50,809 nucleotides of DNA from a virus, in the IMG/VR virus record IMGVR_UViG_3300044700_000325, positions 1 through 50,809 of that record. One strand, given 5' to 3'. The position numbers and the translations under genes were made by a program. The notes under the pieces are model-generated. The model did no database searches. It was not told the origin of the DNA and was given only the letters and a program-made list of their open reading frames with translations. Positions 687-18,870 of the stretch are shown here, piece by piece; within the stretch, counting starts at the first letter, position 1, and the number at the start of each line of letters is the position of its first letter.

Positions 687-1436
687 TTACAAATTATTTC
701 TATTTTCTTTAAAGAATTTCTCAAAAGGATATTGTTGAGGGTTATCAATTATTTGTTCACACTCAATACCTTCGGGAAAATAATAAATGTCACCATCGCA
801 TTTGTACTTTTTATTAAACATATAATCACGATTAAAAAATGAATATTTACCAACACCACTTTTAATGTGTGTATGTCTAATATCCGAAACAATATTTTCA
901 ATACCTGACGCGTATAATCTAAAGATACTATGACCACTATGTTTCTTAACTCGATACATAATATCACCATCCTCTTCACCAAACCCTAATAATCGTTCAT
1001 CAAAATAATTTAAACTATCCAAATAATCTTTATTAACGACAAAGAATGAAAACGTATTATTAATAATACTAAGACCAAAATATTCAGATGATTCTATATG
1101 ATTTGAAACAACGTTAAACATATTATCTGACGATACTTTAATGTCGTCATTTAATATTAATAAATTACCACTTGTTGAATGTATTGATAGTGTGTTCCAC
1201 ATTTTAGACAAACCTCTCGTCTCAATAAAAAATATCGGGTAAACGTTTGTATATTCAGAACATAAATTTAAAATATTTTTTCTATATGTTTCATCAAAAT
1301 TAGAATCCTTTTCACCATTAACACATATTAAAATATTATTATTAACACCTAATTCTCGAATATTTTTAACTAAATCTTTAACAAAATTAAATCTTAATGA
1401 AAATGTTGTTATTCCAATATCAAAATTATTTTTCAC
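687..1436 (-). CDS. GT2-like (GT-A fold) glycosyltransferase
   Basis: A 249-residue protein with a GT-A start (FDIGITTFSLR) followed by an alternating strand/helix pattern. NLLILNDDIKV (Asp97-Asp98) sits where the metal/nucleotide-sugar-binding DXD motif belongs. Asp or Glu residues later in the chain (FDERLLGFGEEDGDIMYRVK) match the 'ED.D' acceptor-side motif of GT2 enzymes. It would transfer a sugar from a nucleotide donor; donor and acceptor cannot be told from sequence. Its start overlaps the stop of the upstream methyltransferase by 4 bases (ATGA), so the two are probably translationally coupled in the operon downstream of the giant fibre gene. Confidence 0.85.
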   Translation of the reverse strand: MKNNFDIGITTFSLRFNFVKDLVKNIRELGVNNNILICVNGEKDSNFDETYRKNILNLCSEYTNVYPIFFIETRGLSKMWNTLSIHSTSGNLLILNDDIKVSSDNMFNVVSNHIESSEYFGLSIINNTFSFFVVNKDYLDSLNYFDERLLGFGEEDGDIMYRVKKHSGHSIFRLYASGIENIVSDIRHTHIKSGVGKYSFFNRDYMFNKKYKCDGDIYYFPEGIECEQIIDNPQQYPFEKFFKENRNNL

Positions 1437-2044
1437 ATCACTTTTTTTTTTATAATTGAGGTAACACTTTGATTATACTCAGGTGTTCTAGTCCATATTC
1501 TAATATCCTCAACATTATTTTTAATGTAACTTTTTTCGTCATCAGTTATGTGATTTGAAATTACATTTTTAGTATAATGTATAGTGTATAACATATCTAA
1601 AGTTGTGATTAAATCGTCAGAATGTATAGTTCCAAATTGGTCTAATCTTGACGTGTGTAAGTCTTCTAAAACATAGATACCCCCCTTTTTTAATCTTTTA
1701 AATAACATACCAAATGAAACTTGTTGTTGTCTCATAGTATGACCACCGTCATCAATAATTAAGTCAAACTCAATATTATTTTCATTGATGAATCTTTCAA
1801 GGTCGTCTCTATTCTCTTGATTTACAATGTATGTTTTAATTCGTTCTGTATCATATTGAGTTTTATTTTCAATATCAATACCGTATATTTTAGCATCTTG
1901 AAATTTAGATTCTAAATATTGTAAACTACCACCGTTATATACTCCGATTTCTAAAACGTTTTTTACATCTTTTAAATTGTTAAAATAAGGTTCATAAAAA
2001 TCAATAAACCCGTGTTCGTATTTATCTGTATCAAATTGTTTCAT
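1433..2044 (-). CDS. SAM-dependent O-methyltransferase, TylF/MycE-like
   Basis: A 203-residue class I methyltransferase. Motif I is VLEIGVYNGGS (residues 30-40, SAM binding), an acidic ribose-binding strand follows (IYGIDIEN, 53-60), and FDLIIDDGGHTMRQQ (93-107) carries the Asp-Asp-Gly-x-His metal site typical of macrolide and sugar O-methyltransferases such as MycE. GGIYVLEDLH follows as the post-motif strand. The likely role is methylating a sugar added by the neighbouring glycosyltransferases. It lies 4 bases after the GT60-like gene and overlaps the next gene by 4 bases. The family call is good; the substrate is inferred from neighbours only. Confidence 0.85.
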   Translation of the reverse strand: MKQFDTDKYEHGFIDFYEPYFNNLKDVKNVLEIGVYNGGSLQYLESKFQDAKIYGIDIENKTQYDTERIKTYIVNQENRDDLERFINENNIEFDLIIDDGGHTMRQQQVSFGMLFKRLKKGGIYVLEDLHTSRLDQFGTIHSDDLITTLDMLYTIHYTKNVISNHITDDEKSYIKNNVEDIRIWTRTPEYNQSVTSIIKKKVM

Positions 2045-2048: not shown

Positions 2049-3299
2049 TTAATATAAATTTCCTGTTAATCTATCACACCATCCTTTAGACACTGAGTAT
2101 GGCCAAACCACCCAATATTTTGGTTTATGTGAGGTTTGGAACTCTCTCCATACTTTACAATATCCATCAGGGTCATTTTTCATACGATTAATTTCGTTAA
2201 TATCGGCATCTTGTCTATGGATTGTTTCATCATTTTCATCGTGGAATGCTACAACCCAAAATTCATAATCTGTTTCAGGTACAGCGTCATAACCGACATC
2301 AATACAATGTTTAAATATGGTTGCAAAACTATCTTCCCATTCCTCATCAGTTTGGTAAATCGTTGGATTTGGTGGATAATTTTTATCTAATGTATATTGT
2401 TGTACCGCACGTCTTGAAAATCGTAGACCTGAATAAATTTCATATTCTTTAAGTGTTCTCTCAGTACCAAATCCGTAAATATCAAAATCAACATCGGATA
2501 ATTCACCATCCATACCAAACAATTTTCTGTTTTTACTATGTGACACATTATTTCTATTCACCCATTCTTTATCATCGTCCCATTGTTTTGTTCTACCTTT
2601 TCTAGTGTATTCGTGCCAAACCAATGTTTTATGTGGGTGGAATAAATCATATCCGTGAGTATAGGCTCTAGCCGCAATTGATATTTCCTCCCCGTGGAAA
2701 TAAAACTCAGGGTCGTGTTGTACCTCAACACTAAATTGACCTACCGTAAATGCGAAGTGAGCTGAATAAAATCTTGATGTTACAGGTTCTTTCATTTTTT
2801 CCCAACCTGGTATTGTTTCAGGTAAAAAGAATACAGCACCTTCAGGGATAAAACGGTCAAATACCATTCTCCAAGGTTCTTTAATTCTTTCAGCTGGGTC
2901 GTTTTCAGGATTAAATGACGATACATATCCTGTTAATAATGGTTTTGGAAAACCTTTCTTTTGTAATTGTTTTACCATTTTAATAAACTCATCATCCCAA
3001 TTTTTTTCAAATCTCATATGTGAGTCAATCTGAAGAGTGTATTCTTCACCACCATATAATTGTTGTACTTGATTTCTCGCCCAACAAACACCTTTAGATT
3101 CGGTATATAGAACGTCTAAGATTCTGAATTTCTTATCTTTTCTATACTCATTTAGGGTGTCAAAACCATCTTCAGGATGGTATTGTCTACAAACACCAAT
3201 TCTAAGGTTGTTAGGTTTTTTAGCATTTTCAATCATGCTTTTAATTGTTTTCTCCAATTCAGGGTCTCTATACGATGCTATTTGCACAAAAATTTTCAT
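2049..3299 (-). CDS. GT60-like polypeptide N-acetylglucosaminyltransferase relative
   Basis: A 416-residue protein matching the GlcNAc-transferase family PF11397 (GT60): N-terminal FVQIASYRDPEL, then GVCWARNQVQ (70-79), and LQIDSHMRF (89-97) with the family's Asp-Ser-His metal/donor site, followed by the WDD segment. The C-terminal half has further family-like blocks (FHGEEISIAARAYTHGYDLF). Known members attach GlcNAc to protein: Dictyostelium Skp1 hydroxyproline, and Thr in Trypanosoma cruzi mucins. It is the first gene after the 4292-residue Thr-rich fibre, on the same strand with a 52-base gap. That makes the fibre's Thr residues an attractive acceptor; this link is inference. A TATTTAT motif lies 36 bases upstream. 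Confidence 0.82.
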   Translation of the reverse strand: MKIFVQIASYRDPELEKTIKSMIENAKKPNNLRIGVCRQYHPEDGFDTLNEYRKDKKFRILDVLYTESKGVCWARNQVQQLYGGEEYTLQIDSHMRFEKNWDDEFIKMVKQLQKKGFPKPLLTGYVSSFNPENDPAERIKEPWRMVFDRFIPEGAVFFLPETIPGWEKMKEPVTSRFYSAHFAFTVGQFSVEVQHDPEFYFHGEEISIAARAYTHGYDLFHPHKTLVWHEYTRKGRTKQWDDDKEWVNRNNVSHSKNRKLFGMDGELSDVDFDIYGFGTERTLKEYEIYSGLRFSRRAVQQYTLDKNYPPNPTIYQTDEEWEDSFATIFKHCIDVGYDAVPETDYEFWVVAFHDENDETIHRQDADINEINRMKNDPDGYCKVWREFQTSHKPKYWVVWPYSVSKGWCDRLTGNLY

Positions 3300-3335
3300 A
3301 CTTCATTTTTTTTTAAAAAATAAGTTTATTATTAT

Positions 3336-3342
3336 ATAAATA
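3336..3342 (-). promoter_or_regulatory. Candidate late promoter (TATTTAT) before GT60-like gene
   Basis: On the minus strand this reads TTTATTTATATAA, 36 bases before the ATG at 3299, in the only sizeable gap of this operon segment. It matches the TATTTAT core seen before many virion genes here. It is the weakest member because of the larger spacing. Confidence 0.3.
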
Positions 3343-3351
3343 AAGGTTTAA

Positions 3352-6300
3352 TTATAAACCAAATCTATCTTTTTGGGAGTTAAAATTAGATAATACCTCA
3401 TCAGATGTTAATATTCTATCGTATACTCTAAACACAGATTGAACACCTTCAAACCAATACGCATTCCCTGTAAATACACCGATTTCAAGAATACCACTAT
3501 TTGCCTGTTGTTGTAATATTTTTGAGTTATCATATCCACCACTAACACCATTAATGTATGTGAAGAACCCTGATGGTGACCAAACACCCACTAAATGAAC
3601 CCATTGATTAACTACTGTTGATGCGGTACTTGTGTATTGTTGGTAAAATGGGGATATTGGTGAACCTCCTAAAATTGATAAACAACCATTTGTTTCTATC
3701 CACATTCTAAACCCACTATTACTATCTTTACTAAAGATTTGAGTTTTTCCAACATTACTAAGATTAGTAGGTTTTAACCAAACTTCTACTGAAACAACGG
3801 TAGTTATTCCTGAAATTGTTGGGTTTGCAGGAAAAGCTACTTTTTGATTAGTACCGTTAAAGTAAAATCCTCCCATTTTGTCAGGTAAGAATGTTGGTGT
3901 GGTTGGGTTTGGTAACGTAATGAAATTTCCGTTAACGTTATTATTAGTGATATCGTTCCAAACAGTACCTGAACCCGGCCAAGATAAATCACTACCAGCA
4001 TCTAACCATAAAATAAGACCATCTGATTCAATTGGGTATTGTGGTGTTGACCCAATAATTGAAGTTGATTGATATGACAATGTTTCCCATTCATTAAACG
4101 GACTACTAAGTGGTTCTGTTGGTGATGAATTTTGTAAAGTTGCGTATAAATCACCTGAACCTAATACCGATGAATTATTCCAACTTGACGTTGAGGTATT
4201 ATACCAAACATATGATTGTGTACCTGAATAGTTGGTTGTTGGTATTTCATAGTAAGGGCTAGTACCATACGTACCTTTAACATCCGAATATACGGTTGTT
4301 GTTGTATCATTAGTCCAATCACGCCATCTCCATCTCCAAGGAGTAGGTTCAACATATACAGGACAAGGGTCAAAACCACATAATGATTGAGTGTAAGGTG
4401 GTACAGGTAAAGTTGTTATTTTACTGTTTAAATTAAAATAAATTACACCACTTGCTACGGTAGAAACGGTAAATGAGTAATATTGGTTATCACATCTTGA
4501 TGTGTAATCATTTGTCAAATAACCAACACCCCATTTAATTCCTGGGAAATAAATATCAACAATAACACCAACACCCACAGTTATTGAGTTTAAGATTGTG
4601 TATGTGGTGTCATTTGCACTAATAACGTTAGTTAATGTTATCCAAGTTCCGTTATTCACACGATATACCATACTAGTACTCGTGACAGTATCACAAGCAT
4701 AATATGGGTTTAAGTTTGTTTGTGCTACAATATCTAGAGTAACAACATTAGTACATGTAGGACAAGTAACAAATGTTGTTGTACCACTTTGGTATAGTAA
4801 TGTTCCGTTGTATGAGGAATTTATTGGCCATTCCTGAAATGCGTTATAACATAACCCATTATTATCTTTAACAACAGTATTGTATGGTAACGATTTAGGT
4901 AACACCATTTTGTAAGTACTAGTGTCTTCTAAACAACCTATATAAGTAAGAGGTGTAGATGGTTCTTCAATCATCATTCCATCGTTAGTTAAACTTAACG
5001 GACCTGCTGGTAATGTATAACTTTTATATTTAACAAATTGGAATGTTGGGATGTAAATACCTATAGATAAAAATGGGAATTGAGATAAAATCAATGAGGA
5101 TTTTTTCTGCCCCAATTGATTTCTTGATGACACCATCTCATTTAATAAATCCTTCATATTTAGAGCAATACAACTTGTGCTATTAATATCGGTCCAAGTC
5201 GAACCTGACGGATTCCAAAAATAAGTTGATTGAGTAGTACCTGTTGTCATAACAAATTTACCAATAACATTAGGTGTTGGTGCTAACGATATGTTATTAA
5301 TCGGTGCTAAAAAGCTAAAAGAAGTGATACCTGTAAATATTGCCGATAATGATGTCGTACAATTATTTGGTATGTTCCAATTCTCATAATGATTTAAAGT
5401 TCTAAATCCTTTAAAGTTAACATTTCTAAGTTTACCTTTACTAAAAGTCGTATTGTTATTACCAAAAAATTGATAATATGACGTTAATGGATATGTGTTA
5501 GACGGCCAACCTGAAAAAACTAATTGGTTATTATTGTTAGCGTCTTTCATATATAGGTCTCTGTTAGCTCTGTATGCGGTATCAAAATCTTCCCAATCAC
5601 TATTACAGTTAAATGTGTCTAAATCACTACAAGTGATATTAAAAAATTTATCATCTAAGAAATCAACCGCAATCATAGGTATTGAGTACGAATATGTTAT
5701 CGGGTCATTAATACAAGTACTTGGTAACACACAGTTTGATTCCGGATAAACACAAGTTAATGAATAACAAGGTGAAACACAATATAGAGACGTACAAGTA
5801 TTATCATAAACATAACCTGCCATAGAACACAAATGAGGAACTGATGTAGGTGTTACTGTTCTTGTAGGTGTTTGAGTTCTTGTGTTAGTTGGTGTTTGAG
5901 TTCTTGTAACACTTGGGGTTTGGGTTCTTGTTGGGGTTTGTGTAGGAGTTTGGGTTGGAGTTTGGGTTTGAGTTGGAGTTTGGGTTCTTGTTTGGGTTGG
6001 AGTTTGGGTTGGGCAAGGATTACTATTAGTACATTCAACACATTTATCACCAACAAAGTCTTTTACCGCATAAGTACCGTTCCATACTTTATTAGCAACT
6101 CCTGTTGCCGTACTTAATAATATCTGATAACATTGACCTAACGTGTCTTTAACAACCCAAGTAAAAAATGGACTAGCACTTGGTGTGTATATTGTTGGTA
6201 ATAATATTTTAAATTCTGTTACTAAATCACAACAACTAACCACGTTAAATAAAGTATATGGTGTTGTTTTTGTTGGGGTTTGAGTTTTAGTTTGAGTTGG

Positions 6301-9300
6301 GGTTTGAGTATTAGTTGGGGTTGGGGTTTTAGTTTGAGTTATAGTTTGTGTTGGGGTTTTAGTTTGAGTAATAGTTTGTGTTGGGGTTTTAGTTTGTGTT
6401 GGGGTTTGAGTTTGGGTTGTTGTTGGTGTTGGTGTTGGTGTTGGACAAATGGCTGAGTTTGAAACAATACCAAATCCCATTCTTAACCAATTTTGACCAT
6501 TTAAATCACTTCTCCAAACCTGACTTGAATACGATGCCATACTTGAAACATCTCCGGCTGAATTATACGGTCCGGCATTACCTTGAATAACCGATGTTGA
6601 TTTTATCATTACCTCCAACCATTGAGATTGATTATCTCGATAAAAATTACCTATCCATGATGTTGGTGTTGTGGTATCACCATATCGTCCCCCATAAACT
6701 ATTAGTTTTGCATAAAATTTACCATTATTATCAGTACCTGTTTTATACCAAACATTTTGAATATCTCCTTGACCTTGACCAACCATAACTAAACCTGGTT
6801 CTAACCAATTGTCACCGGGGTTACCACCTAAACTTGCGGGTGGGCCAACATATGGTGTTCCTGGGTCTGAGTAAGACGTTAAACCTGTAAATATGGTAAA
6901 ATACCCATTAGTTCCAACATATAACTTATCCGAAAATGTTGCATTTTGTGCAAATGTTGTTGGTAACGTGATTGGTGTAACCATATAACCTTCATCAAAA
7001 TCTGTAAACCCACCATTGTATAAAATATAATCAATTGTGTTAGGCCAAGTTAACGATACGTTTGGACAAAACACATAACCGGCAGGTGTTGTTGTTGGGG
7101 TTGGGGTTTTTGTTTGTGTTATAGTGTTAGTGGGTGTTTGTGTTCTTGTTACTGTATTAGTTGGTGTTATTGTATTAGTTGGTGTTATTGTATTAGTTGG
7201 TGTTACAGTTCTTGTTGGTGTCACTGTTCTTGTAATAGTGTTAGTTGGTGTTTGTGTTATAGTGTTAGTCGGTGTTGAAGTTCTTGTGATGGTTGGTGTT
7301 GGTGTTGGTGTTGGACAAATATTTGTTTGTACACATTCAACACAAGGGTTAACCTGAAACGCGGAGTTTTGTGTTGGGGTTTGATTATTCCAAATCTTAT
7401 TTGGTAAACCTGTTGTTGTGCCAATTATTTTATAACAAAAACCATCAGTCCCAATAACCGACCAAGTAACCGTGTAGAACTCGTCAAAATCAAAATAAGG
7501 TGTGTAAAATGTCGGTAATGACATTATATGTAGTGATGAATCACAACAACTTTGAATTTGGAATATTGAATATGGGGTTGTTGGGGTTTGTGTTTGAGTT
7601 CTTGTTACAGTATTTGTAGGTGTTTGTGTTATTGTATTTGTAGGTGTTTGTGTTTGAGTTCTTGTGACTGTATTTGTTGGCGTTTGAGTTCTTGTGACTG
7701 TATTTGTTGGCGTTTGAGTTCTTGTGACTGTATTTGTTGGCGTTTGAGTTGGTGTTTCAGTAACAGTTGGGGTAATTGTGTTAGTTGGTGTTTGGGTTGG
7801 TGTTTTTGTTGGTGTGCGAGTTATACAAGTATTACAGTAGTAATAACACTCTTCACAAGCATATACATAACCCGGAGGACATGTGTATCCGTTAGTTGTT
7901 GGTGTACCACCTGACGTTTGAACAACGTCAAAATAATAAGGACCACCCGTTTGATATGATTCGGTTGTAAATATTCTATTTAATTGAGAAACTGATGTTG
8001 CATTAATCAATTCAGATACTGTGTTATCATAAATTTCTGCCGCCATCGACGCTAAACCATCACAGTTATACGAGACCATTTCGATAACGTGTCTACCCGC
8101 GGATAAGTAGACTTCGTAAACTCTAAAATGGTAAAATGCCTGTGCGGTACATGGTGAACAAGTATATGAATTTGAAAATAATACACCATCAATTGAAAAT
8201 TTAAAGTTATTGTCAGAAACCATACCAATGAAATATCGTTTACCGACAGGTATGTCAATACATTTAGTGAACCCAATCCATTTTTGGTCACCAAGTGATG
8301 TTGGGTTAGAATAAATCCCAACTCTATTTAATGGGCCTGTAAATGAATCTGTTGACCTCCAAACATCAGGAGTTACTAAAGTATAACTAGGAGTTGTTGT
8401 TGTAAAACAAGTTGGTATTGAGTAATCACTTTCTAAATAGATTTGAGTCCCATTTTGACAATAACTACCATTTTTATTACCAGGACCTACAGGATATTGG
8501 GATATTGGTGGTATTGCCGGTGTTACATCACAAACATCTATACATCTTCTACTTGGAGTGACCGTTTGTGTCGGTGTTTGTGTTGATGTTTGTGTTTGAG
8601 TTGCGGTATTAGTTGGCGTTACTGTATTAGTTGGGGTTGATGTGATAGTATTTGTTGGGGTTGATGTGATAGTATTTGTTGGTGTTACAGTTCTTGTCGT
8701 GGTTGGTGTTGGTGTTGATGTAATGGTATTTGTTGGGGTTATATCTGGTGTTCTTGTGTTAGTAGGTGTTTGAGTAATTGTGTTAGTTGGCGTTACAGTT
8801 CTTGTCGGGGTTTGGGTGATAGTGTTAGTTGGTGTTACAGTTCTTGTCGGGGTTTGGGTGGTAGTTTTTGTTGGTGTGTTAGTTTGGGTGTTAGTGTTAG
8901 TTGGTGTGTTAGTTGGGGTTATATTTGGTGTTCTTGTTTGTGTGTTTGTTTGTGTGTTTGTTGGGGTTTGTGTTCTTGTTTGTGTGTTTGTTGGAGTTTG
9001 TGTTCTTGTTTGTGTGTTAGTTGGTGTTATATTTGGTGTTGGTGTTTTAGTTGGGGTTATAGTGGCTGTTGGGGTTTGAGATGGTGCAACAACATAATCA
9101 CAAATACATAGTGTGAATCCTGAAATTGAGCCCCCATTATTAACACCAAAATCTTGAATGTATAATCCCCAAGTCCCATTCGCGATAGTGTGCGACATAC
9201 CAATAAACGTGGATAAACTATAACCTGATTGTCCTGCACTATACTGAGGTAATGTGGCATTATTCCAATATGTTGTATAATTAACTTGTGGGTCATTAGT

Positions 9301-12300
9301 GAAAGTTCCTGGTGAATAACCATCCCATAACGTTCCTGAATAATTAGTTAATGTAACATCAACGTTACTAATTGAATTATTACCTTGTCTACCTGTTATA
9401 AGTGCGGTTGAGGTATTATGTGTTAAATAATCAGGACCTAATAATATCATACCAACATCGTTTGTTTGACTATGACTATATCCGCTTATACGTAGTTCAA
9501 TTCTTGTTATTGGAGAATCGAGACCTGATACATTGAATAAGATAGGGTTTGTTGTTGGGTTACCTAATGAAGGTATTATAACTCCGTTGGCGTTAAAACA
9601 ATGACAATCAATTGGCGGTGTTGGTGACGGTGTATTAGTATTTGTTGGTGTGTTAGTTGGTGTTTTTGTAACAGTTGGGGTTTGTGTTCTTGTTTGTGTG
9701 TTAGTTGGTGTTATATTTGGTGTTACAGTTCTTGTTGGTGTTTGTGTTCTTGTGTTAGTTGGTGTTTGAGTTCTTGTATTTGTTGGTGTTTGGGTTATAG
9801 TATTCGTAGGTGTAATCGTATTTGTTGGCGTATTTGTTGGTGTAATCGTATTTGTTGGTGTGTTAGTTGGTGTTAAAGTATTTGTTGGTGTGTTAGTAAT
9901 TGTTGGTGTGTTAGTTGGTGTTGGACAAAAACCTAAAGATGATTTACTCATACCAGATGTTCCCCCAAAAGTATTTAACCAAACAATAGTTAAATCACTA
10001 ACAGGGTATGGTGATGGTGAAGAAAGTCTTGCATATACTGAACCACCATCTAAAAGGGTACTAAACGTCCATTTATCTAAAGATGGTGAGTACCAAACAT
10101 ATCCAAACACACTTAAATCAGTGTTTGGTATTATGTAGTATGGTCGATTGTTGTAAACTCCTGATGGTGAAACGTTAGAACTCCAAGAACCATTTGGGTT
10201 GAATGTTGTAAAACAAATTAAAGGTGAAGGTGTTGGCGTTTGTGTTTGGGTGTTAGTGTTTGTTGGTGTTTGTGTTCTTGTTATTGTGTTCGTTGGGGTG
10301 TTAGTCGGTGTTTGGGTTGGTGTCTCAGTGTTAGTTGGTGTTTGAGTAACTGTTGGTGTGATAGTATTAGTTGGTGTCTGAGTAACTGTTGGTGTGATAG
10401 TATTAGTTGGTGTTTGTGTCTGAGTATTTGTTGGTGTGTTAGTTGGGGTCTTAGTGTTAGTTGGTGTCTGTGTAATAGTGTTAGTTGGTGTCTGTGTAAT
10501 AGTGTTAGTTGGTGTTTGTGTTTGAGTTATTGTGTTAGTTTGTGTTTGAGTTCTTGTGTTAGTAGGTGTTTGAGTTATTGTATTAGTTGGGGTTATTGTA
10601 TTGGTTGGTGTAACAGTGTTAGTCGGAGTTTGTGTAATTGTAGGAGTTGGTGTTGGCGTCGGACAAGGATTGAAAGTGTTACATTGAATACAAGGGTTAC
10701 TATTTATCGCTTCATACACTTGATTAATGTTACCATTCCAAAATTTATTAGGTGGTAATGGTGAGGTTATTAATTCATTAACCACAAAACATTGTCCTGT
10801 CGTGTCAACAACCGAATATATATAACTATTACCACCTGGAGGTCCTATCACGGGTTGGTATATTGTTGGTAATGACATATAAAAACTACCAGGCGATGAT
10901 GAACAACAACTTAAAACATCAAATATTGAGTAAGGGGTTGTTGGTGTTTGTGTTATTGTGTTGGTAGGGGTTTGTGTTATTGTGTTAGTTGGGGTTTGGG
11001 TGATAGTATTAGTCGGTGTTTGTGTTTGTGTTCTTGTGTTGGTAGGGGTTTGGGTGATAGTATTAGTCGGTGTTTGTGTTCTTGTTGGTGTTTGAGTTAT
11101 GGTATTAGTCGGAGTTTGAGTTATGGTATTAGTCGGAGTTTGAGTAGGTGTTTTAGTGTTAGTTGGGGTTTGAGTAATAGTGTTAGTTGGGGTTTGAGTA
11201 ATAGTGTTAGTTGGGGTTTGTGTTTTTGTTGGCGTAACTGTGTTTGTTGGTGTTTGAGTAATTGTATTTGTTGGTGTTACAGTATTCGTTGGGGTGTTTG
11301 TTGGGGTTTGTGTTCTTGTGGGTGTGTTAGTTCTTGTCACTGTTTGGGTTTGTGTAATTGTATTTGTTGGGGTTTGGGTTTGAGTAATCGTATTAGTTGG
11401 TGTTTGTGTTTGTGTAATCGTATTAGTTGGTGTTTGTGTTTGTGTAATCGTATTAGTTGGTGTTTGTGTTTGTGTAACTGTTGGTGTTGGTGTTGGTGTT
11501 GGTTCAATACAAGGTAATGACCCTAAAATACAACCACTAATAATGTCGTAAGTGAATGTTCCAATACATTGAGTTTGTGTACATTGACTATTTAATATTG
11601 TTAAAGGACTTTGAGGAAAATTTCGTTGTGCTAATAATACACCACCAACATTTTGGAACCCAAAATTGGAATCACCTACCATAGTACCCCCCGAATAAGA
11701 GTACATTGTTATATTTAACGCACCTGTACCAACTGATGTAAACCAATTAGCTTTAGCTGTAAATTGTATTGATGGTAATGAAGGGTATGTAATTTTTAAT
11801 GTTTTTAAATTAACATAAATTGTTTCAGAACCTTGTGAGTTAATGTTATCACCACCCCAATATAAATATGGACCACCATAAACACCTGAAGGTAGATTAC
11901 CTGTTGTACAATAACCTAAAGGTCCTTGAGTTAATGGGTTTATTAATGTTGTTTCAGTGTCTAAATCAGTTCCCGAACCCGGAGGGAAATTATAAACGAA
12001 CACAACATAATCGGCCCCCGGATAACAAGGTTTTGTAGGTGTTGGGGTTTGAGTGGTTGTGGGAGTTGGTGTCTGTGTTTGTGTTTGTGTATTAGTAGGG
12101 GTTTTGGTTGGTGTTTGAGTTTGTGTTGATGTGTTAGTTGGGGTTTGTGTAATAGTGTTTGTTGGTGTGGATGTTTTGGTTGGTGTTGAAGTATTTGTCG
12201 GTGTTTGAGTTATTGTATTTGTTTGTGTTTGTGTGATTGTGTTAGTTGGCGTTGATGTTCTTGTGATGGTGTTTGTTGGGGTTTGGGTAATCGTATTTGT

Positions 12301-15300
12301 TGGGGTTTGAGTAATCGTGTTCGTCGGTGTAACAGTTCTTGTTGGGGTTTGGGTGATTGTGTTAGTTGGGGTTTGGGTGATAGTATTAGTCGGTGTTGAT
12401 GTGTTCGTTGGTGTCTGTGTTATAGTATTTGTTGGTGTTTGAGTAATTGTGTTCGTTGGTGTAACAGTTCTTGTTGGGGTTTGGGTTATAGTGTTTGTAG
12501 GTGTTTGAGTTACAGTGTTCGTTGGTGTTGAAGTGTTAGTTGACGTTATTGTGTTAGTTGGTGTCTGTGTAATAGTGTTAGTTGGTGTTTGGGTTATTGT
12601 ATTTGTATTTGTTTGTGTTTGTGTTCTTGTGTTGGTAGGTGTTGAGGTGTTTGTTGGTGTTATTGTGTTAGTTGGTGTTACTGTGTTGGTAGGTGTTGAG
12701 GTGTTTGTTGGTGGAGGTGTAGCACCTGGGCTTAGTGTGGGTGTTGGGGTTACATCTGAAGTTCTTGTCACCGTAGGTGTTATTGTCTTAGTTGGGGTGT
12801 TAGTTTGGGTTGGTGTGTTTGTTGGTGTATTTGTTGAAGTCTGAGTTATTGTATTTGTAGGTGTTGAGGTGTTTGTTGGTGTTTGAGTACTGGTATTCGT
12901 TGGTGTTTGTGTGATAGTATTAGTTGGTGTAATTGTGTTAGTTGGTGTTAACGTATTAGTTGGGGTTTGGGTAATTGTGTTAGTTGGTGTTACAGTATTA
13001 GTGGATGTAATAGTGTTAGTTGGGGTTTGAGTAATAGTGTTAGTTGGGGTTTGGGTAATTGTGTTAGTTGGTGTTTGTGTGATAGTATTAGTTGGTGTTG
13101 ATGTGATAGTGTTAGTTGGTGTTGAAGTATTTGTTGGTGTTGAAGTATTTGTCGGTGTTTGAGTTATTGTATTTGTTGGGGTTTGAGTTATTGTATTAGT
13201 AGGAGTTATAGTATTGGTGGGTGTTTGTGTGATAGTATTGGTAGGTGTTTGTGTGATAGTGTTTGTTGGTGTTTGTGTGATAGTATTGGTAGGTGTGTTA
13301 GTTGGGGTTGATGTTTGAGTATTTGTTGGTGTTTGAGTATTAGTTGGGGTTGATGTTATAGTGTTAGTTGGTGTTTGAGTAGTGGTAGGTGTTGGGGTGG
13401 GTGTAGGACAAATACCGATATTTGAAGATAACATAGAATTACCACCAAATGAACCCGTCCATGTATTTGAAAAATCGTCTAAAGGGTAATCGCTATTAAC
13501 ATTTAATATACTATAAACGGAACCACCACCGATTAATGATGAATACTTCCAAAGTGATAATGTGGTATCAAACCAAACGTATCCAACTACAGTGAATGAA
13601 TCAATAATCCCATAGTAAGGTTTACCGTAAACAAACCCACTTGCGGTTGTGTTATAAAGAATCTGACCTGGTGTTATGTTATTTGTGTGTCTAAAACAAA
13701 TCAACGGTGGTGACGTTGGTGTCGGGGTTTGCGTGTTTGTTTGGGTATTAGTCGGTGTTTGGGTGTTAGTCGATGTTTGTGTTTGAGTTCTTGTATTTGT
13801 TGGTGTTTGTGTTTGAGTTCTTGTATTTGTTGGTGTTTTAGTATTTGTTGGTGTCTGTGTGTTAGTTGTTGTTGGTGTCGGTGTCGGACAAGGGTGGGTT
13901 GAATTACAATTAACACAACCATTACCTGTGTCTACGTATACATCGTTATAATTACCGTTCCAAAATAAATCAGGGGTTTCACCTCCAGGTCCTGAAGATA
14001 GGATTGTATAACAAAATCCATTAGTATCTGAAACTACAAATGATGAATATGTTGGGAAAAAAGTTGGGGTGAAAATAATTGGTAATTCCATAAACCCTGT
14101 AATACCATTACAACAACTTTCAACGAAGAATAAATCATACGGTGTTGTTGGTGTTGGTGTTTGAGTTGTGGTAGGTGTGTTTGTTATGGTATTTGTTGGG
14201 GTTTGAGTAATTGTGTTAGTAGGTGTGTTGGTATTTGTCGTTGTATTTGTTGGTGTTACGGTTACGGTAGGTGTTTGGGTTTTTGTTGATGTATTTGTAG
14301 GTGTAACAGTTCTGGTAGGTGTTTGTGTAATCGTGTTAGTTGGCGTTTGTGTTATAGTGTTTGTAGGTGTTACTGTGTTAGTAGGGGTTTGTGTTATAGT
14401 ATTAGTTGGTGTTTGTGTGATAGTGTTAGTTGGCGTTACAGTTTTTGTTGGGGTTTGGGTATTTGTGTTGGTAACTGTATTTGTTGGTGTTTGGGTTATG
14501 GTATTTGTTGGTGTTGATGTAATAGTATTTGTTGGTGTTACAGTTCTTGTTGGGGTTTGAGTAATTGTATTAGTCGGGGTTTGAGTAATAGTGTTAGTTG
14601 GGGTTTGAGTTTGTGTAATCGTATTAGTTGGGGTTTGAGTTTGTGTTTGTGTAATTGTATTTGTTGGTGTTTGAGTTCTTGTTGGTGTTTGGGTGTTTGT
14701 TTGGGTTTGAGTTTGAGTTATAGTATTTGTTGGAGTTTGAGTTATAGTATTTGTTGGGGTTTGAGTAATAGTATTTGTTGGTGTTTGAGTTCTTGTTGGG
14801 GTTTGTGTTTGGGTAATTGTGTTTGTGGGTGTGTTGGTTGATGTTATAGTATTAGTTGGCGTTTGAGTTGGTGTTTCAGTATTCGTTGGTGTTTGAGTTC
14901 TTGTATTGGTTGGTGTTTGAGTTCTTGTATTTGTTGGTGTCTGTGTTTGTGTGATAGTATTTGTTGGTGTCTGTGTTGGTGTAATAGTGTTTGTTGGTGT
15001 GACAGTGTTTGTTGGTGTAATAGTGTTTGTTGGTGTGTTAGTTGGGGTTTGTGTGTTAGTCGGGGTTTGAGTAATTGTGTTAGTTGGTGTAACTGTATTT
15101 GTTGGTGTAATAGTGTTAGTCGGTGTTTGAGTTCTTGTGTTAGTTGGGGTTTGAGTTATAGTATTAGTTGGTGTTTGGGTTTGTGTAATAGTGTTAGTTG
15201 GTGTGTTAGTTGGTGTGACTGTATTAGTCGGTGTAACTGTATTTGTTTGTGTTACTGTTTGAGTTGGTGTTTCTGTAACAGTTGGCGTTTGAGTTGGTGT

Positions 15301-16230
15301 TTCTGTAACAGTTGGAGTTTGAGTAATTGTGTTAGTTGGTGTTTGAGTTGGGGTTTCTGTGACAGTTGGTGTTTGAGTTGATGTTTTAGTAACAGTTGGT
15401 GTTTGAGTTGGGGTTATTGTGTTAGTTGTTGTAACAGTTGGTGTTGGTGTTGGTGTTAAACACAAATAACTTGGATTCTCAATTTGGCAATCATAACAAT
15501 TAGTTGATTGACCCATAAATTGGTGTTGGAATATAATTGTTGAACTTGTACTTCCAATATATTGAGCACAACCTTCAAAGTTTGTATTTGTAATAAAATA
15601 GGTCCCACCTAATGGTGAATATGATGCCGGAATATTAGATATTCTAAATTCATAAGTTGAATCACAACAACTTCTAAAACTACCAACGATTGGTGGTAAA
15701 GTTGGTGTTATTGTAGGAGTTGGTGTTGGTGTCGGTGATGGGTCAGGACATCCGTTAGTATCACAACCATTAATTGGCGGAGGAATATAACCAGGGTCTG
15801 ATATTGATGGGTTATAACCACAAAAATATAAAGTTGTATTACCAAGAATTGTTGTTGTTAATATATTACCATCACATAAAGTTATAGTGAATGGTACTGG
15901 GTTAACGCTAGGATTAATTAAAGTATAACACTTACACTTATTAGGTGTTGGTGTTACTGTTGGTGTGTTTGTATTAGTTGGAGTTGGGGTGGGTGTTGGT
16001 TTACATGATAAATATAATAATTCCTCACAACCTTTTGAGTCAGTGGCGATAACTAAAACTTCAGATAATGGTTCATCACCATCAAAAAAAACAGGTGATG
16101 GTATTTCTAAAACAGGCGGTACTGATACAACACCTGTCAAGACAACTTCACAGTATGTTCTTGTTAAATCACAGATTGTTATATCGTAAGGTGAATGCCC
16201 CGTTAAACTTGTTATATATATTACACTCAT
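3352..16230 (-). CDS. Giant mucin-like multidomain fibre/adhesin protein (4292 residues)
   Basis: One open frame of 12.9 kb. A small N-terminal domain (residues 1-75) is followed by about a dozen Thr/Pro/Asn/Gln-rich tracts in which nearly every second residue is Thr ([12 protein letters not shown] style). The tracts separate globular modules: a six-Cys module in five or six copies, a 'GYVW/GGSVYA' module in three, a unique beta-rich module near residues 1400-1575, a P-domain-like jelly roll near 2207-2381, a PA14-like domain near 2561-2801, another unique module near 3050-3260, and a C-terminal LamG/concanavalin-like domain near 4067-4292. No signal peptide or membrane segment is seen. It sits with three other fibre genes, so a long receptor-, glycan- or mucus-binding virion fibre is likely. 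The exact virion location is unknown. Confidence 0.9.
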   Translation of the reverse strand: MSVIYITSLTGHSPYDITICDLTRTYCEVVLTGVVSVPPVLEIPSPVFFDGDEPLSEVLVIATDSKGCEELLYLSCKPTPTPTPTNTNTPTVTPTPNKCKCYTLINPSVNPVPFTITLCDGNILTTTILGNTTLYFCGYNPSISDPGYIPPPINGCDTNGCPDPSPTPTPTPTITPTLPPIVGSFRSCCDSTYEFRISNIPASYSPLGGTYFITNTNFEGCAQYIGSTSSTIIFQHQFMGQSTNCYDCQIENPSYLCLTPTPTPTVTTTNTITPTQTPTVTKTSTQTPTVTETPTQTPTNTITQTPTVTETPTQTPTVTETPTQTVTQTNTVTPTNTVTPTNTPTNTITQTQTPTNTITQTPTNTRTQTPTNTITPTNTVTPTNTITQTPTNTQTPTNTPTNTITPTNTVTPTNTITPTQTPTNTITQTQTPTNTRTQTPTNTRTQTPTNTETPTQTPTNTITSTNTPTNTITQTQTPTRTQTPTNTITQTPTNTITQTPTNTITQTQTQTNTQTPTRTQTPTNTITQTQTQTPTNTITQTQTPTNTITQTPTNTITQTPTRTVTPTNTITSTPTNTITQTPTNTVTNTNTQTPTKTVTPTNTITQTPTNTITQTPTNTVTPTNTITQTPTNTITQTPTRTVTPTNTSTKTQTPTVTVTPTNTTTNTNTPTNTITQTPTNTITNTPTTTQTPTPTTPYDLFFVESCCNGITGFMELPIIFTPTFFPTYSSFVVSDTNGFCYTILSSGPGGETPDLFWNGNYNDVYVDTGNGCVNCNSTHPCPTPTPTTTNTQTPTNTKTPTNTRTQTQTPTNTRTQTQTSTNTQTPTNTQTNTQTPTPTSPPLICFRHTNNITPGQILYNTTASGFVYGKPYYGIIDSFTVVGYVWFDTTLSLWKYSSLIGGGSVYSILNVNSDYPLDDFSNTWTGSFGGNSMLSSNIGICPTPTPTPTTTQTPTNTITSTPTNTQTPTNTQTSTPTNTPTNTITQTPTNTITQTPTNTITQTPTNTITPTNTITQTPTNTITQTPTNTSTPTNTSTPTNTITSTPTNTITQTPTNTITQTPTNTITQTPTNTITSTNTVTPTNTITQTPTNTLTPTNTITPTNTITQTPTNTSTQTPTNTSTPTNTITQTSTNTPTNTPTQTNTPTKTITPTVTRTSDVTPTPTLSPGATPPPTNTSTPTNTVTPTNTITPTNTSTPTNTRTQTQTNTNTITQTPTNTITQTPTNTITSTNTSTPTNTVTQTPTNTITQTPTRTVTPTNTITQTPTNTITQTPTNTSTPTNTITQTPTNTITQTPTRTVTPTNTITQTPTNTITQTPTNTITRTSTPTNTITQTQTNTITQTPTNTSTPTKTSTPTNTITQTPTNTSTQTQTPTKTPTNTQTQTQTPTPTTTQTPTPTKPCYPGADYVVFVYNFPPGSGTDLDTETTLINPLTQGPLGYCTTGNLPSGVYGGPYLYWGGDNINSQGSETIYVNLKTLKITYPSLPSIQFTAKANWFTSVGTGALNITMYSYSGGTMVGDSNFGFQNVGGVLLAQRNFPQSPLTILNSQCTQTQCIGTFTYDIISGCILGSLPCIEPTPTPTPTVTQTQTPTNTITQTQTPTNTITQTQTPTNTITQTQTPTNTITQTQTVTRTNTPTRTQTPTNTPTNTVTPTNTITQTPTNTVTPTKTQTPTNTITQTPTNTITQTPTNTKTPTQTPTNTITQTPTNTITQTPTRTQTPTNTITQTPTNTRTQTQTPTNTITQTPTNTITQTPTNTITQTPTTPYSIFDVLSCCSSSPGSFYMSLPTIYQPVIGPPGGNSYIYSVVDTTGQCFVVNELITSPLPPNKFWNGNINQVYEAINSNPCIQCNTFNPCPTPTPTPTITQTPTNTVTPTNTITPTNTITQTPTNTRTQTQTNTITQTQTPTNTITQTPTNTITQTPTNTKTPTNTPTNTQTQTPTNTITPTVTQTPTNTITPTVTQTPTNTETPTQTPTNTPTNTITRTQTPTNTNTQTQTPTPSPLICFTTFNPNGSWSSNVSPSGVYNNRPYYIIPNTDLSVFGYVWYSPSLDKWTFSTLLDGGSVYARLSSPSPYPVSDLTIVWLNTFGGTSGMSKSSLGFCPTPTNTPTITNTPTNTLTPTNTPTNTITPTNTPTNTITPTNTITQTPTNTRTQTPTNTRTQTPTRTVTPNITPTNTQTRTQTPTVTKTPTNTPTNTNTPSPTPPIDCHCFNANGVIIPSLGNPTTNPILFNVSGLDSPITRIELRISGYSHSQTNDVGMILLGPDYLTHNTSTALITGRQGNNSISNVDVTLTNYSGTLWDGYSPGTFTNDPQVNYTTYWNNATLPQYSAGQSGYSLSTFIGMSHTIANGTWGLYIQDFGVNNGGSISGFTLCICDYVVAPSQTPTATITPTKTPTPNITPTNTQTRTQTPTNTQTRTQTPTNTQTNTQTRTPNITPTNTPTNTNTQTNTPTKTTTQTPTRTVTPTNTITQTPTRTVTPTNTITQTPTNTRTPDITPTNTITSTPTPTTTRTVTPTNTITSTPTNTITSTPTNTVTPTNTATQTQTSTQTPTQTVTPSRRCIDVCDVTPAIPPISQYPVGPGNKNGSYCQNGTQIYLESDYSIPTCFTTTTPSYTLVTPDVWRSTDSFTGPLNRVGIYSNPTSLGDQKWIGFTKCIDIPVGKRYFIGMVSDNNFKFSIDGVLFSNSYTCSPCTAQAFYHFRVYEVYLSAGRHVIEMVSYNCDGLASMAAEIYDNTVSELINATSVSQLNRIFTTESYQTGGPYYFDVVQTSGGTPTTNGYTCPPGYVYACEECYYYCNTCITRTPTKTPTQTPTNTITPTVTETPTQTPTNTVTRTQTPTNTVTRTQTPTNTVTRTQTQTPTNTITQTPTNTVTRTQTQTPTTPYSIFQIQSCCDSSLHIMSLPTFYTPYFDFDEFYTVTWSVIGTDGFCYKIIGTTTGLPNKIWNNQTPTQNSAFQVNPCVECVQTNICPTPTPTPTITRTSTPTNTITQTPTNTITRTVTPTRTVTPTNTITPTNTITPTNTVTRTQTPTNTITQTKTPTPTTTPAGYVFCPNVSLTWPNTIDYILYNGGFTDFDEGYMVTPITLPTTFAQNATFSDKLYVGTNGYFTIFTGLTSYSDPGTPYVGPPASLGGNPGDNWLEPGLVMVGQGQGDIQNVWYKTGTDNNGKFYAKLIVYGGRYGDTTTPTSWIGNFYRDNQSQWLEVMIKSTSVIQGNAGPYNSAGDVSSMASYSSQVWRSDLNGQNWLRMGFGIVSNSAICPTPTPTPTTTQTQTPTQTKTPTQTITQTKTPTQTITQTKTPTPTNTQTPTQTKTQTPTKTTPYTLFNVVSCCDLVTEFKILLPTIYTPSASPFFTWVVKDTLGQCYQILLSTATGVANKVWNGTYAVKDFVGDKCVECTNSNPCPTQTPTQTRTQTPTQTQTPTQTPTQTPTRTQTPSVTRTQTPTNTRTQTPTRTVTPTSVPHLCSMAGYVYDNTCTSLYCVSPCYSLTCVYPESNCVLPSTCINDPITYSYSIPMIAVDFLDDKFFNITCSDLDTFNCNSDWEDFDTAYRANRDLYMKDANNNNQLVFSGWPSNTYPLTSYYQFFGNNNTTFSKGKLRNVNFKGFRTLNHYENWNIPNNCTTSLSAIFTGITSFSFLAPINNISLAPTPNVIGKFVMTTGTTQSTYFWNPSGSTWTDINSTSCIALNMKDLLNEMVSSRNQLGQKKSSLILSQFPFLSIGIYIPTFQFVKYKSYTLPAGPLSLTNDGMMIEEPSTPLTYIGCLEDTSTYKMVLPKSLPYNTVVKDNNGLCYNAFQEWPINSSYNGTLLYQSGTTTFVTCPTCTNVVTLDIVAQTNLNPYYACDTVTSTSMVYRVNNGTWITLTNVISANDTTYTILNSITVGVGVIVDIYFPGIKWGVGYLTNDYTSRCDNQYYSFTVSTVASGVIYFNLNSKITTLPVPPYTQSLCGFDPCPVYVEPTPWRWRWRDWTNDTTTTVYSDVKGTYGTSPYYEIPTTNYSGTQSYVWYNTSTSSWNNSSVLGSGDLYATLQNSSPTEPLSSPFNEWETLSYQSTSIIGSTPQYPIESDGLILWLDAGSDLSWPGSGTVWNDITNNNVNGNFITLPNPTTPTFLPDKMGGFYFNGTNQKVAFPANPTISGITTVVSVEVWLKPTNLSNVGKTQIFSKDSNSGFRMWIETNGCLSILGGSPISPFYQQYTSTASTVVNQWVHLVGVWSPSGFFTYINGVSGGYDNSKILQQQANSGILEIGVFTGNAYWFEGVQSVFRVYDRILTSDEVLSNFNSQKDRFGL
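3355..4030 (-). other. LamG/concanavalin-like C-terminal domain of the giant fibre
   Basis: It opens with SDGLILWLDAGS and includes WNDITNNNVNGN, FNGTNQKVAF, VEVWLKP, NQWVHLVGVW and FRVYDRILTSDEVLSNF. This is the usual strand order of Laminin_G_3 domains, which commonly bind glycans. The same architecture ends the fibre gene at 18875-22060. Confidence 0.8.
7652..7750 (-). repeat. Exact 30-base tandem repeat, 3.3 copies
   Basis: The plus strand shows the same 30-base unit three times in a row (starting GTTTGAGTTCTTGTGACTGT), plus a partial copy. On the coding strand each unit encodes ten residues of the Thr-every-second-residue tract. Perfect identity between copies indicates a recent expansion. 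Confidence 0.9.
7830..8550 (-). other. PA14-like domain of the giant fibre
   Basis: The stretch includes KWIGFTKCIDIPVGKRYF, IGMVSDNNFKFSIDGVLF, YEVYLSAGRHVIEMVSY and LASMAAEIYDN. This is the PA14-type order of a solvent-exposed 'D/N..+..iDG' strand, an 'l.aG.+.i.' strand and a closing hydrophobic strand. PA14 domains bind carbohydrates in adhesins. The call is by pattern only. Confidence 0.55.
9090..9610 (-). other. P-domain-like jelly roll of the giant fibre
   Basis: The segment from FNVSGLDSPITRIELRISG through DVGMILLGPDYLTHN to ANGTWGLYIQDFGVNNGG and SISGFTLCICD follows the proprotein-convertase P-domain pattern: 'H...DL...L.sP', 'NGtW.L.v.D...g..G.l..w.L'. Such domains are common C-terminal modules of secreted Bacteroidetes proteins. 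Two Cys residues near the end (CICD) may pair with the CHC at the start. Confidence 0.7.
11391..11477 (-). repeat. 30-base tandem repeat in the Thr-rich tract, about 2.9 copies
   Basis: The plus strand repeats a unit starting TGTTTGTGTTTGTGTAATCG followed by TATTAGTTGG two full times with flanking partial copies. It encodes a ten-residue TNTITQTQTP-type unit on the minus strand. This is a second, independent recent expansion inside the same gene. Confidence 0.85.
12031..13410 (-). repeat. Longest Thr-x-Thr-x low-complexity tract
   Basis: About 460 residues of [12 protein letters not shown]-like sequence with no globular break. Thr occupies almost every second position and Pro recurs every four or six residues. 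The plus strand is nearly pure G/T with a few A, giving extreme strand bias. Thr and Pro codons vary (ACA, ACT, ACC; CCA, CCT, CCC) while the residue pattern is kept, which suggests selection on the protein. Confidence 0.95.
14139..15460 (-). repeat. Second long Thr-x-Thr-x tract
   Basis: About 440 residues with the same alternating Thr pattern. It lies between the first two six-Cys modules (counting from the N-terminus) and has more VTET and TQTPTNT variants near its start. Other, shorter tracts lie at about 5845-6012, 6262-6450, 7084-7318, 7575-7826, 8555-9085, 9611-9925, 10224-10665, 10934-11505 and 13711-13890. Confidence 0.95.
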
Positions 16231-16313: not shown

Positions 16314-17480
16314 TTAAAAATCAACACAGTTAACACTATTAAACATTCCACATATTGAGTTTTGTAATAATGTTGTAATTTGATTATTAGAAATAATAGT
16401 TGACGGTAATGATGAATTGTATTTTGATAATAGTATCATACCGATAAACCCATTTTTACCTATAACAGTTACGGTTGAGTCTAATTGATTTGGGTTAGAT
16501 ACGCTACCTCGATTATCTTCAACACCTGAAATTACTGTACCCCAATTTGGTGATTCTACAGTAAACCAAACATATTCAATTGATGGACAAGGTGTTTGTC
16601 CTGATAAGAAGACAGGATTGACACCTATATTACTATAACGATACCAACTACCGTTAATATTATCACAACTATATGTCCCTTCGGTTAACGTGACCTCACG
16701 AGTTATTGTGTATGGACCATAAGTTGGGTCATTATCTGAAATAATCGCAGGTAACCCAAGTTCAGCAATTGAATGAGGACTAATGGTTGTCCCTAAATTA
16801 ACCAATGTTATTTGAGGCCAAATGTTTGGTTTACTGACAAAAAAGTCAACACCGATAGTTCCATAAACTTTTGGGAAAGGAGTGTTTAATAAAATGGTGT
16901 TACCAACATTAAACATACGTAAACCACCTGTGTTAATAAAAGTAGACCCAGGTAAATAGGAATATGTGTAATAATTAGTTATTGATGAATAAGATGGAAA
17001 TGAATTATTATTCCACCAAACATTGTATTTTTGAAAACAACTTAATGGTGTTAATGTTGGTGTTGGGGTTCTTGTTAATGTTGGTGTTGGTGTTTTTGTA
17101 AATGTTGGGGTAACTGTTGGTGTTACAGTTGATGTTGGTGTTGGTGAAATTAAACAAGGGTTTGGTGTGATTGTTGGGGTTGGTGTTTTTGTTGGAGTTT
17201 TAGTGACGGTTGGTGTTATTGTGTTAGTTGGGGTTTGTGTTGGTGTTGGTCTAACAACGTTCATAATATTTGGGCATGTCGAATTACTAACTAATATTGT
17301 GTAAGTTCCAAATACATCGCGAGGTGGTATTAATGTTGAAGGGTCAAACGTGTATGGTAATATGATTTGACCGAATTCTTTATTTAAATTTATTGTGACA
17401 TTATCATTATCAGGTTTAAATAAAATATTAGCTGACTCACCGTCATAATTAACACTTGATATTACTATTGTATTACTCAT
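16314..17480 (-). CDS. Fibre-type virion protein with Thr/Pro linker
   Basis: A 388-residue protein. Residues 1-80 (TIVISSVNYDGESANILF... DVFGTYTILVSN) share a domain with the start of the next upstream gene (TVVIGTRNYSGETADITFYP... IFGTYELFFSS). Then comes a Pro-Thr linker (about 81-145, [23 protein letters not shown]), then a beta-rich C-terminal domain of about 240 residues with several Cys and Trp that I do not recognise. It begins 4 bases after the protease-fibre gene. It is probably a shorter paralogue-type fibre or adaptor sharing the same attachment domain. Confidence 0.8.
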   Translation of the reverse strand: MSNTIVISSVNYDGESANILFKPDNDNVTINLNKEFGQIILPYTFDPSTLIPPRDVFGTYTILVSNSTCPNIMNVVRPTPTQTPTNTITPTVTKTPTKTPTPTITPNPCLISPTPTSTVTPTVTPTFTKTPTPTLTRTPTPTLTPLSCFQKYNVWWNNNSFPSYSSITNYYTYSYLPGSTFINTGGLRMFNVGNTILLNTPFPKVYGTIGVDFFVSKPNIWPQITLVNLGTTISPHSIAELGLPAIISDNDPTYGPYTITREVTLTEGTYSCDNINGSWYRYSNIGVNPVFLSGQTPCPSIEYVWFTVESPNWGTVISGVEDNRGSVSNPNQLDSTVTVIGKNGFIGMILLSKYNSSLPSTIISNNQITTLLQNSICGMFNSVNCVDF

Positions 17481-17484: not shown

Positions 17485-18870
17485 TTAAAAATTATTTTCG
17501 ATTGCTAAACAAACTTCACCATTCATAGATATTAATCTTGACATATCATTGAATGAGATAAACGCGTGCCCTTGTTTACCCCAAGTTTGTCCCCAACTAT
17601 TTTTTATTCTAAAAAGTTTTTTCTCTTTATCCACACCATTTATTAAATATGCGTGACCTCCCACAATACCTCCTGTAACTCTAATTATTCCATTTGAATC
17701 GGGATAGAACATCCCTGAATACCAATAAGTACCAACAACTACAGGACCTAATTCAAATACTGATTTAATTAAAGTATTTAAATCGTAAGCCCAATAGTAA
17801 GATTTAATTACATTTTGAGATTGTAAGTATTTCGCACCTGCTCTAACAGATGTTCCATTATAATTTTCACCAGGCCATTCATCTATTTTTTGGGCTTGGT
17901 TATATATAGTTACAGGTGAAATTATTGGTGGTGTACCATCGTGACCAACAGGACCGTCTTCAACCCAATGAGCCCAAGAATATCCAACACAATGTGGTAA
18001 ATTACGTTGATTACCCCACCAACCATCAGAATCCCAATACTTAAATAGATAAACAGGGGTTTTTGTTGGTGTCGGTGTTGGTAACACAGGTTTAGATTTA
18101 CTCGGTGTTGGTGTTATTGCTTTAGATTTACTTGGTGTTGGTAATGGTTTGGATTTACTTGGTGTTGGTGTTATTTTAAATTTATTAACTACAGGTCTTG
18201 TAATAACAACACTAAGTAGATAATCGTAATTATCCTTAATTAGGTAATTTTTATCTCTAATATCAGGAATATACATTCTACCTAATAGTGAAACATCTGG
18301 CTTAACTTCTAACGGTGGTTCTAATTCTTGAGTGTCATTAATTACGTATGTAAAATCATTGATAGCACAACTGTCTGTAGAACAATCAGGACAATCGGGG
18401 TTAAACATTATAAATGGGTTCTTCAGTAAACTAAAGTTGTGTTTAACTTCAGGGGCGGATAATGGTGAGGTGTAGAATCTAAACTGAGATATTGCACCTT
18501 CAAAGGAACCTGCAAAATGTTTGTTTATTAATATATTAGTGTTTAGACCGCTAAATGTTGTTCCACTTAAATCAACGTCAGAAAAATTTTCAGGGTCTTG
18601 TGTATATCTTTGGAATAAATCATATTCAACTGTTGTCGCTGTTATTGTTTGGGGGGCTGGTATTGGATTTGATGTTGATATTGTAAATTCACAGGTAAAA
18701 TTATATGATGAAAAAAATAGTTCATACGTTCCAAAAATATAATTAGTTGAATAATTGTATGGAACAACGTGTGAACCAACATTAATTGTTCCACCTGTTT
18801 CCGGGTAAAACGTAATATCCGCAGTTTCACCACTATAATTTCTTGTTCCTATAACTACTGTTGATGCCAT
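17485..18870 (-). CDS. Fibre-type protein with papain-like (C1A) cysteine protease domain
   Basis: I place the start at the ATG at 18870 (MASTVVIG, 461 residues). The frame extends 30 codons further but overlaps the upstream gene's end. The N-terminal domain (1-80) matches the one at 16314-17480. A short LamG-like tail end follows (GAISQFRFYTSPLSAPEVKH), then a linker of PTPSKSK repeats (about 230-270), then a papain-fold domain. The catalytic residues are present: NQRNLPHCVGYSWAHW gives oxyanion Gln288 and Cys294, GGHAYLINGVD gives His406, and KNSWGQTWG gives Asn424. An active protease carried on the virion could cut host surface protein or process fibres. Confidence 0.88.
   Translation of the reverse strand: MASTVVIGTRNYSGETADITFYPETGGTINVGSHVVPYNYSTNYIFGTYELFFSSYNFTCEFTISTSNPIPAPQTITATTVEYDLFQRYTQDPENFSDVDLSGTTFSGLNTNILINKHFAGSFEGAISQFRFYTSPLSAPEVKHNFSLLKNPFIMFNPDCPDCSTDSCAINDFTYVINDTQELEPPLEVKPDVSLLGRMYIPDIRDKNYLIKDNYDYLLSVVITRPVVNKFKITPTPSKSKPLPTPSKSKAITPTPSKSKPVLPTPTPTKTPVYLFKYWDSDGWWGNQRNLPHCVGYSWAHWVEDGPVGHDGTPPIISPVTIYNQAQKIDEWPGENYNGTSVRAGAKYLQSQNVIKSYYWAYDLNTLIKSVFELGPVVVGTYWYSGMFYPDSNGIIRVTGGIVGGHAYLINGVDKEKKLFRIKNSWGQTWGKQGHAFISFNDMSRLISMNGEVCLAIENNF

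Follow-up and report, generated by a model that had tools for sequence, protein, structure and literature searches.

The giant Thr-rich gene and its surroundings

We analysed a 50.8-kb virus record at its full length (the window), which carries a T4-type gp23 capsid gene and comes from a large aquatic T4-type phage. The features of the window are listed in Table 1.

Table 1. Genes and features of the window
Feature	Position	Strand	Basis
Third decorator ORF, incomplete at window end	1..684	-	gene order
Probable GT2-like glycosyltransferase, exchangeable decorator gene	687..1436	-	sub-cut-off Glyco_tranf_2_2 and Glyco_transf_7C, E 0.002-0.005
Methyltransferase, exchangeable decorator gene	1433..2044	-	Methyltransf_24 E 1.6e-7
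GT60-type (PF11397) glycosyltransferase, 416 aa, proposed initiating polypeptide HexNAc-transferase	2049..3299	-	PF11397 E 4.5e-71
Proposed mucin-like fibre and main acceptor	3352..16230	-	4292 aa; 13 Thr-x-Thr tracts between globular Cys-bearing blocks
388-aa protein with short TxT tracts	16314..17480	-	upstream of giant ORF
TP-linker protein with papain-like C1 peptidase domain	17485..18960	-	Peptidase_C1 E 8.4e-7; phrog_16701 peptidase
1061-aa protein, TxT tract and C-terminal LamG_3 domain	18875..22060	-	Laminin_G_3 E 3.5e-11; phrog_8510 virion structural protein E 1.1e-10
Partial DegT aminotransferase	from 28219	+	second sugar-gene group
PhyH-type dioxygenase	29611-30477	+	second sugar-gene group
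GT2	from 31045	+	second sugar-gene group
Methyltransferase	from 31730	+	second sugar-gene group
Two-domain glycosyltransferase	32383-33894	+	second sugar-gene group
Another GT2	from 36629	+	second sugar-gene group
T4-type gp23 capsid gene	46304-48118		

Thr accounts for 1195 residues (27.8%) and Pro for 457 residues (10.6%) of the giant protein. Its 13 tracts, 21-473 aa each and 2043 aa in total (948 Thr, 307 Pro), are long, repetitive and Thr/Ser/Pro-rich as in mucins, and they alternate with the globular blocks and a block of 824 aa at the C-terminus. The preliminary description of this DNA, which saw a protein dominated by Thr/Pro tracts, was correct on this point. Within the tracts Thr is found at almost strictly each second residue, mostly with P, N, Q, I, V, R, S or K in between; T-x-T occurs 938 times in the protein vs. 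at most 369 times in 200 shuffled sequences of the same composition. Short, imperfect tandem repeats are frequent in the tracts, and the hexapeptide TPTNTI is present in 89 copies with 56 distinct DNA encodings. Because identical peptides are written with many different codons, the order of the Thr ladder is maintained at the protein level. This codon diversity, together with the near-absence of the reversed TPTxTPTxT codon pattern from related genomes, rules out a DNA simple-repeat artefact. An assembly artefact is also unlikely, given the related giant ORF at the loci L001/L041, where the globular blocks are mostly 57-87% identical and the tract lengths are different. The sole PHROG match of the protein was phrog_15511, a Thr/Pro-rich family of unknown function.

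Three further ORFs upstream of the giant ORF, on the same strand, bear shorter TxT or TP tracts. The 1061-aa protein with the LamG_3 domain is likely a virion structural protein, judging from its domain and PHROG matches. The true start of the peptidase ORF is probably an ATG ∼31 codons inside; its papain-like C1 domain is carried on a fibre-like Thr/Pro-linker protein, possibly a virion protease. A second group of sugar genes occupies positions 28219-37507 on the opposite strand.

The GT60-type enzyme and the genes that follow it

The GT60 gene begins 52 nt downstream of the giant ORF on the same strand, and its product contains both CWARNQ and QIDSHMRF, which agrees with the PF11397-core gene first noticed at this place. 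The protein belongs to PF11397 (240.6 bits vs. a curated cut-off of 21), with a match that spans positions 94-350 of the profile and a further stretch at the N-terminus, and it also matches phrog_24687 (E 2.9e-162). We found 305 relatives in IMG/VR. The dN/dS ratio of about 0.04-0.08 indicates strong purifying selection. A scan for promoters and terminators around the gene gave results at chance level.

PF11397 was the only Pfam match of the enzyme, with no ricin-type lectin domain, and sequence searches against the PDB returned no GalNAc-T and no solved chain with detectable similarity; neither by sequence nor by lectin domain does the protein fall into GT27. An AlphaFold2 model built from aligned phage and bacterial homologues reached a pLDDT of 94.4 and superseded a model from a shallow alignment (pLDDT 73). 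When this model was compared with the PDB by Foldseek, polypeptide GalNAc-Ts took the first 33 ranks at moderate TM scores of 0.44-0.53; below them ranked other GT-A enzymes, whose acceptors are not proteins. The predicted fold is closest to that of the mucin-initiating polypeptide GalNAc-transferases, which is a similarity of fold and not GT27 membership. Residues D92, H94, E205, R211, H229 and W240 are invariant in 56/56 phage and bacterial GT60 sequences, including the metal-binding-type D-x-H core of the family (D92 and H94). The Mn ligands of GalNAc-T2 are Asp224, His226 and His359 (PMC4432651), a pattern that the D-x-H and distal His of the GT60 sequences resemble. The T. cruzi polypeptide alpha-GlcNAc transferase and the Skp1 enzyme, which uses hydroxyproline, both belong to GT60, and the members of known activity act on polypeptides (PMC6939170).

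The methyltransferase that had been described after the GT60 gene was recovered. The two additional glycosyltransferases of the preliminary description fared less well: the gene at 687-1436 is a weak case with sub-cut-off Pfam matches, and ORF 1-684, cut by the window end, had neither a Pfam nor a PHROG match. All three decorator genes were found in the same order in a locus whose GT60 is 75% identical (L057), at 79% identity for the methyltransferase, 75% for the gene at 687-1436 and 63% for ORF 1-684. None of the three was detected in L001, the locus with the closest GT60 (95% identical).

Association of GT60 with TxT proteins and an exchangeable gene block

Among the 77 loci with a GT60 relative and enough upstream sequence, a TxT-rich ORF immediately precedes GT60 in 55; counting every locus with one inside 10 kb raises the number to 70. 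After removal of near-duplicates it is adjacent in 25/37 loci and within 10 kb in 10 more. The tract sequences differ strongly between loci. In a second phage clade (GT60 ∼40% identical), 43 of the 58 loci have a TxT ORF within 10 kb, frequently one for a ∼540-aa protein a short distance after GT60. Three records recovered solely via their capsid gene carry GT60 as well, and TPTxTPTxT tracts were present in all 15 large GT60-bearing records searched. PF11397 was detected in 20/64 viral records of at least 20 kb picked by TxT vs. 0/32 records chosen through a random 14-mer (p = 9e-5); the TxT pattern was also found in 0/32 of the latter. Because clade members share descent, which inflates the locus counts (70/77 and 43/58 within 10 kb), the independent evidence amounts to two clades and the weaker case of phage XacN1. 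The expected association of GT60 with Thr-rich fibres elsewhere was borne out in these two clades and against the random background, and is weak in the XacN1 lineage.

No TxT ORF was found near the viral GT60s that diverge most (L444, L445 and L447). One of them is an 820-aa ORF (L445, 7993-10452, - strand) whose GT60 domain is 33% identical; given its length and GT60 domain it is probably a fusion. Its 311-kb record has TxT tracts at other places. Bacterial PF11397 loci showed no enrichment of Ser/Thr/Pro-rich neighbours (3/139 neighbours vs. 13/843, p = 0.49), as counted by a simple ORF picker that failed in nine loci. One strikingly Ser/Thr/Pro-rich neighbour was observed in each of three bacterial loci (L457, L462 and L483); the extremely Ser/Thr/Pro-rich proteins of Jiulongibacter (L462, 8944-9810, - strand) and Prosthecobacter (L483, 2918-4129, - strand) adjoin the PF11397 gene. 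Three Bacteroidota MAG contigs (L456, L457 and L458) encode 69-70% identical GT60s; they probably represent phage contigs, or prophages, that were binned with Bacteroidota, which gives a hint of the host.

It is conceivable that the TxT tracts act as spacers that hold receptor-binding domains apart and share the fibre neighbourhood with a GT60 acting on other sites or other fibre proteins of the virion. Thr/Pro linkers are common in modular proteins, and the upstream neighbours without TxT are usually still fibre-like (LamG-type end, Gly-rich, or a short TPTP end), as in three loci with a Gly-rich ORF before GT60 (L054, L061 and L062). A 28% identical GT60 lies in a long operon without TxT (L446), and many TxT records have no PF11397, including 6/17 of those of at least 100 kb, where records may be incomplete. 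Against this, Thr is held at nearly every second position with free variation of the remaining residues, a regularity that greatly exceeds the needs of a spacer, and GT60 adjoins the TxT ORF in most of the non-redundant loci. We consider the spacer explanation unlikely.

On the downstream side, GT60 opens a glycan cassette as its conserved 5' gene, and an HtrL/YibB-type gene closes it. A ∼563-aa HtrL_YibB-type gene was found downstream of GT60 in 35/40 representative loci at a median distance of 3.2 kb, and HtrL occurs as a single copy in 14 of the 15 large GT60-bearing records and is located close to GT60, XacN1 and Stenotrophomonas RAS14 included. Between the two are 0-8 genes in 45 loose clusters, mainly glycan genes: GT25, GT34, GT10, GT11 and PLOD-type glycosyltransferases, FkbM and other methyltransferases, GNAT acetyltransferases, carbamoyltransferase, DegT aminotransferase and nucleotidyltransferase. 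These genes are exchanged even among loci with near-identical GT60s: pairs with at least 90% GT60 identity have a mean of 9% of decorator genes in common, whereas HtrL is common to 86% of pairs. In line with the suggestion that the neighbours extend or cap a sugar, the genes do look like extension and capping types, and they are swapped among relatives. This exchangeable block is a new element added to the original idea.

HtrL is followed by a ∼230-aa protein in 30/40 representative loci and by a ∼937-aa protein in 21/40, the latter being DNA polymerase B in L001. Several members of the ∼230-aa family (15444-16082 in L001 and its equivalents) have runs of six or seven Thr (TTTTTT), which may mark a second acceptor.

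The cassette could instead modify a host surface glycan, for receptor masking or superinfection exclusion, and not a phage protein. Several of the decorator types (GT25, GT10, GT11, FkbM and DegT) are used for LPS, O-antigen and capsule, and phage glycosyltransferases are known for serotype conversion. Such conversion is also mentioned in PMC12619734. The conserved position beside fibre genes, the polypeptide acceptors of GT60/PF11397 activity so far (PMC6939170) and the virion glycoproteins of XacN1 (PMC5852040) speak against a host target, which appears quite improbable. We give still less credence to glycosylation of phage DNA against restriction. A DNA polymerase gene does follow the cassette in relatives, and the C-terminal part of the HtrL-type protein matches phrog_842, beta-glucosyl-HMC-alpha-glucosyltransferase, weakly (E 6e-4). 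On the other side, the thymidylate synthase/dCMP hydroxymethylase family was present in only 8/15 records (several of them fragments), and the family and fold of GT60 indicate polypeptide acceptors.

Proposed virion O-glycosylation and its relation to known systems

The reading that we prefer, with a probability of close to 60%, is that the phage encodes its own virion O-glycosylation, in which GT60 initiates on Thr of the TxT tracts and the decorator genes extend and cap the sugar. GT60 would be an initiating polypeptide HexNAc-transferase acting in the host cytoplasm. Its acceptors would be long fibre-like virion proteins, chiefly the giant protein encoded upstream. In the window, extension and capping would fall to the methyltransferase and the probable glycosyltransferases, and in relatives the cassette closes with an HtrL/YibB-type enzyme. 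GT60 and HtrL form a fixed frame and the genes between them are traded among phages, so that the type of glycan would change while the anchoring chemistry stays constant. The coat may serve shielding, adhesion or evasion; mucin mimicry as its function is speculation.

Hydroxyproline of the TPT motifs, formed by a phage or host prolyl hydroxylase, might replace Thr as the acceptor, in the manner of Skp1 Gnt1 of GT60 (PMC6939170). The Pro content of the tracts and the PhyH-type dioxygenase of the window would fit such a route. It is disfavoured because a PF13640 oxygenase was found in only 1/15 GT60-bearing records, in a survey of this one oxygenase family; moreover, the constant residue of the tracts is Thr, not Pro. 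We regard this route as very improbable and retain Thr as the candidate acceptor.

A bolder version of Thr-linked O-glycosylation is that widespread aquatic T4-like phages build a true phage mucin, with hundreds of Thr-linked HexNAc stubs per fibre, a cap set by the exchangeable block between fixed GT60 and HtrL, and a glycan identity switched by recombination, much like bacterial O-antigens. We offer this picture tentatively, as one that may well prove too strong.

Glycosylation of phage virion proteins is, to our knowledge, known in only a few cases, and our search of the literature turned up no earlier report of GT60 or of Thr-rich fibres in phages. If the proposal is true, mucin-type O-glycosylation and the switching of glycan antigens have an equivalent in viruses, and roles of phage surface sugars in adhesion, shielding and evasion become testable. 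It also offers a likely function for the PF11397 genes of >300 phage contigs; the PHROG family of these genes is so far described just as 'glycosyltransferase'. The giant Thr-rich protein beside GT60 and the swapped decorators that follow suggest that these phages cover their particles with sugars of a kind that can change.

Among known systems, the window enzyme is of the same family, PF11397, as the GT60 polypeptide alpha-GlcNAc transferases of T. cruzi mucin and of Dictyostelium/Toxoplasma Skp1 (Gnt1), with a very strong score. In contrast to these enzymes it is phage-encoded and set in a fibre region with a variable glycan cassette, and its acceptor and sugar are putative. The GT27 GalNAc-Ts provide the nearest solved folds to its model and a similar D-x-H and distal His pattern, but they lack detectable sequence similarity to it and have a ricin-type lectin domain, which is not reported for the window protein.

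In Xanthomonas phage XacN1, GT60 (ORF334, 47-50% identical) is followed by a carbamoyltransferase, two ORFs and an HtrL_YibB gene, and a TxT-tract protein (ORF350) adjoins an annotated structural protein. XacN1 shares GT60, HtrL and a TxT-bearing ORF with the phages described here, but its GT60 is not directly beside the TxT ORF and its decorator block contains a carbamoyltransferase. According to the XacN1 paper, proteomics found at least two virion glycoproteins, and the two glycosyltransferases of the phage are suggested to make them (PMC5852040). Four core glycosyltransferase families are described for the large aquatic 'moraphage' lineage (PMC12619734). Phage glycosyltransferases have been tied to sugars on virion proteins in mycobacteriophages Che8 and Rita, as cited in PMC11256854 and PMC12619734. 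The sites in Che8/Rita are the C-termini of capsid and tail-tube proteins, whereas here we propose a fibre with a Thr ladder, which GT60 would initiate on, together with a block of swappable genes.

In bacteria, glycosylation islands for O-antigen or flagellin keep their ends conserved and swap the transferase genes that lie inside. The GT60-HtrL cassette has the same layout, but it is phage-borne and, by hypothesis, its product is attached to a fibre.
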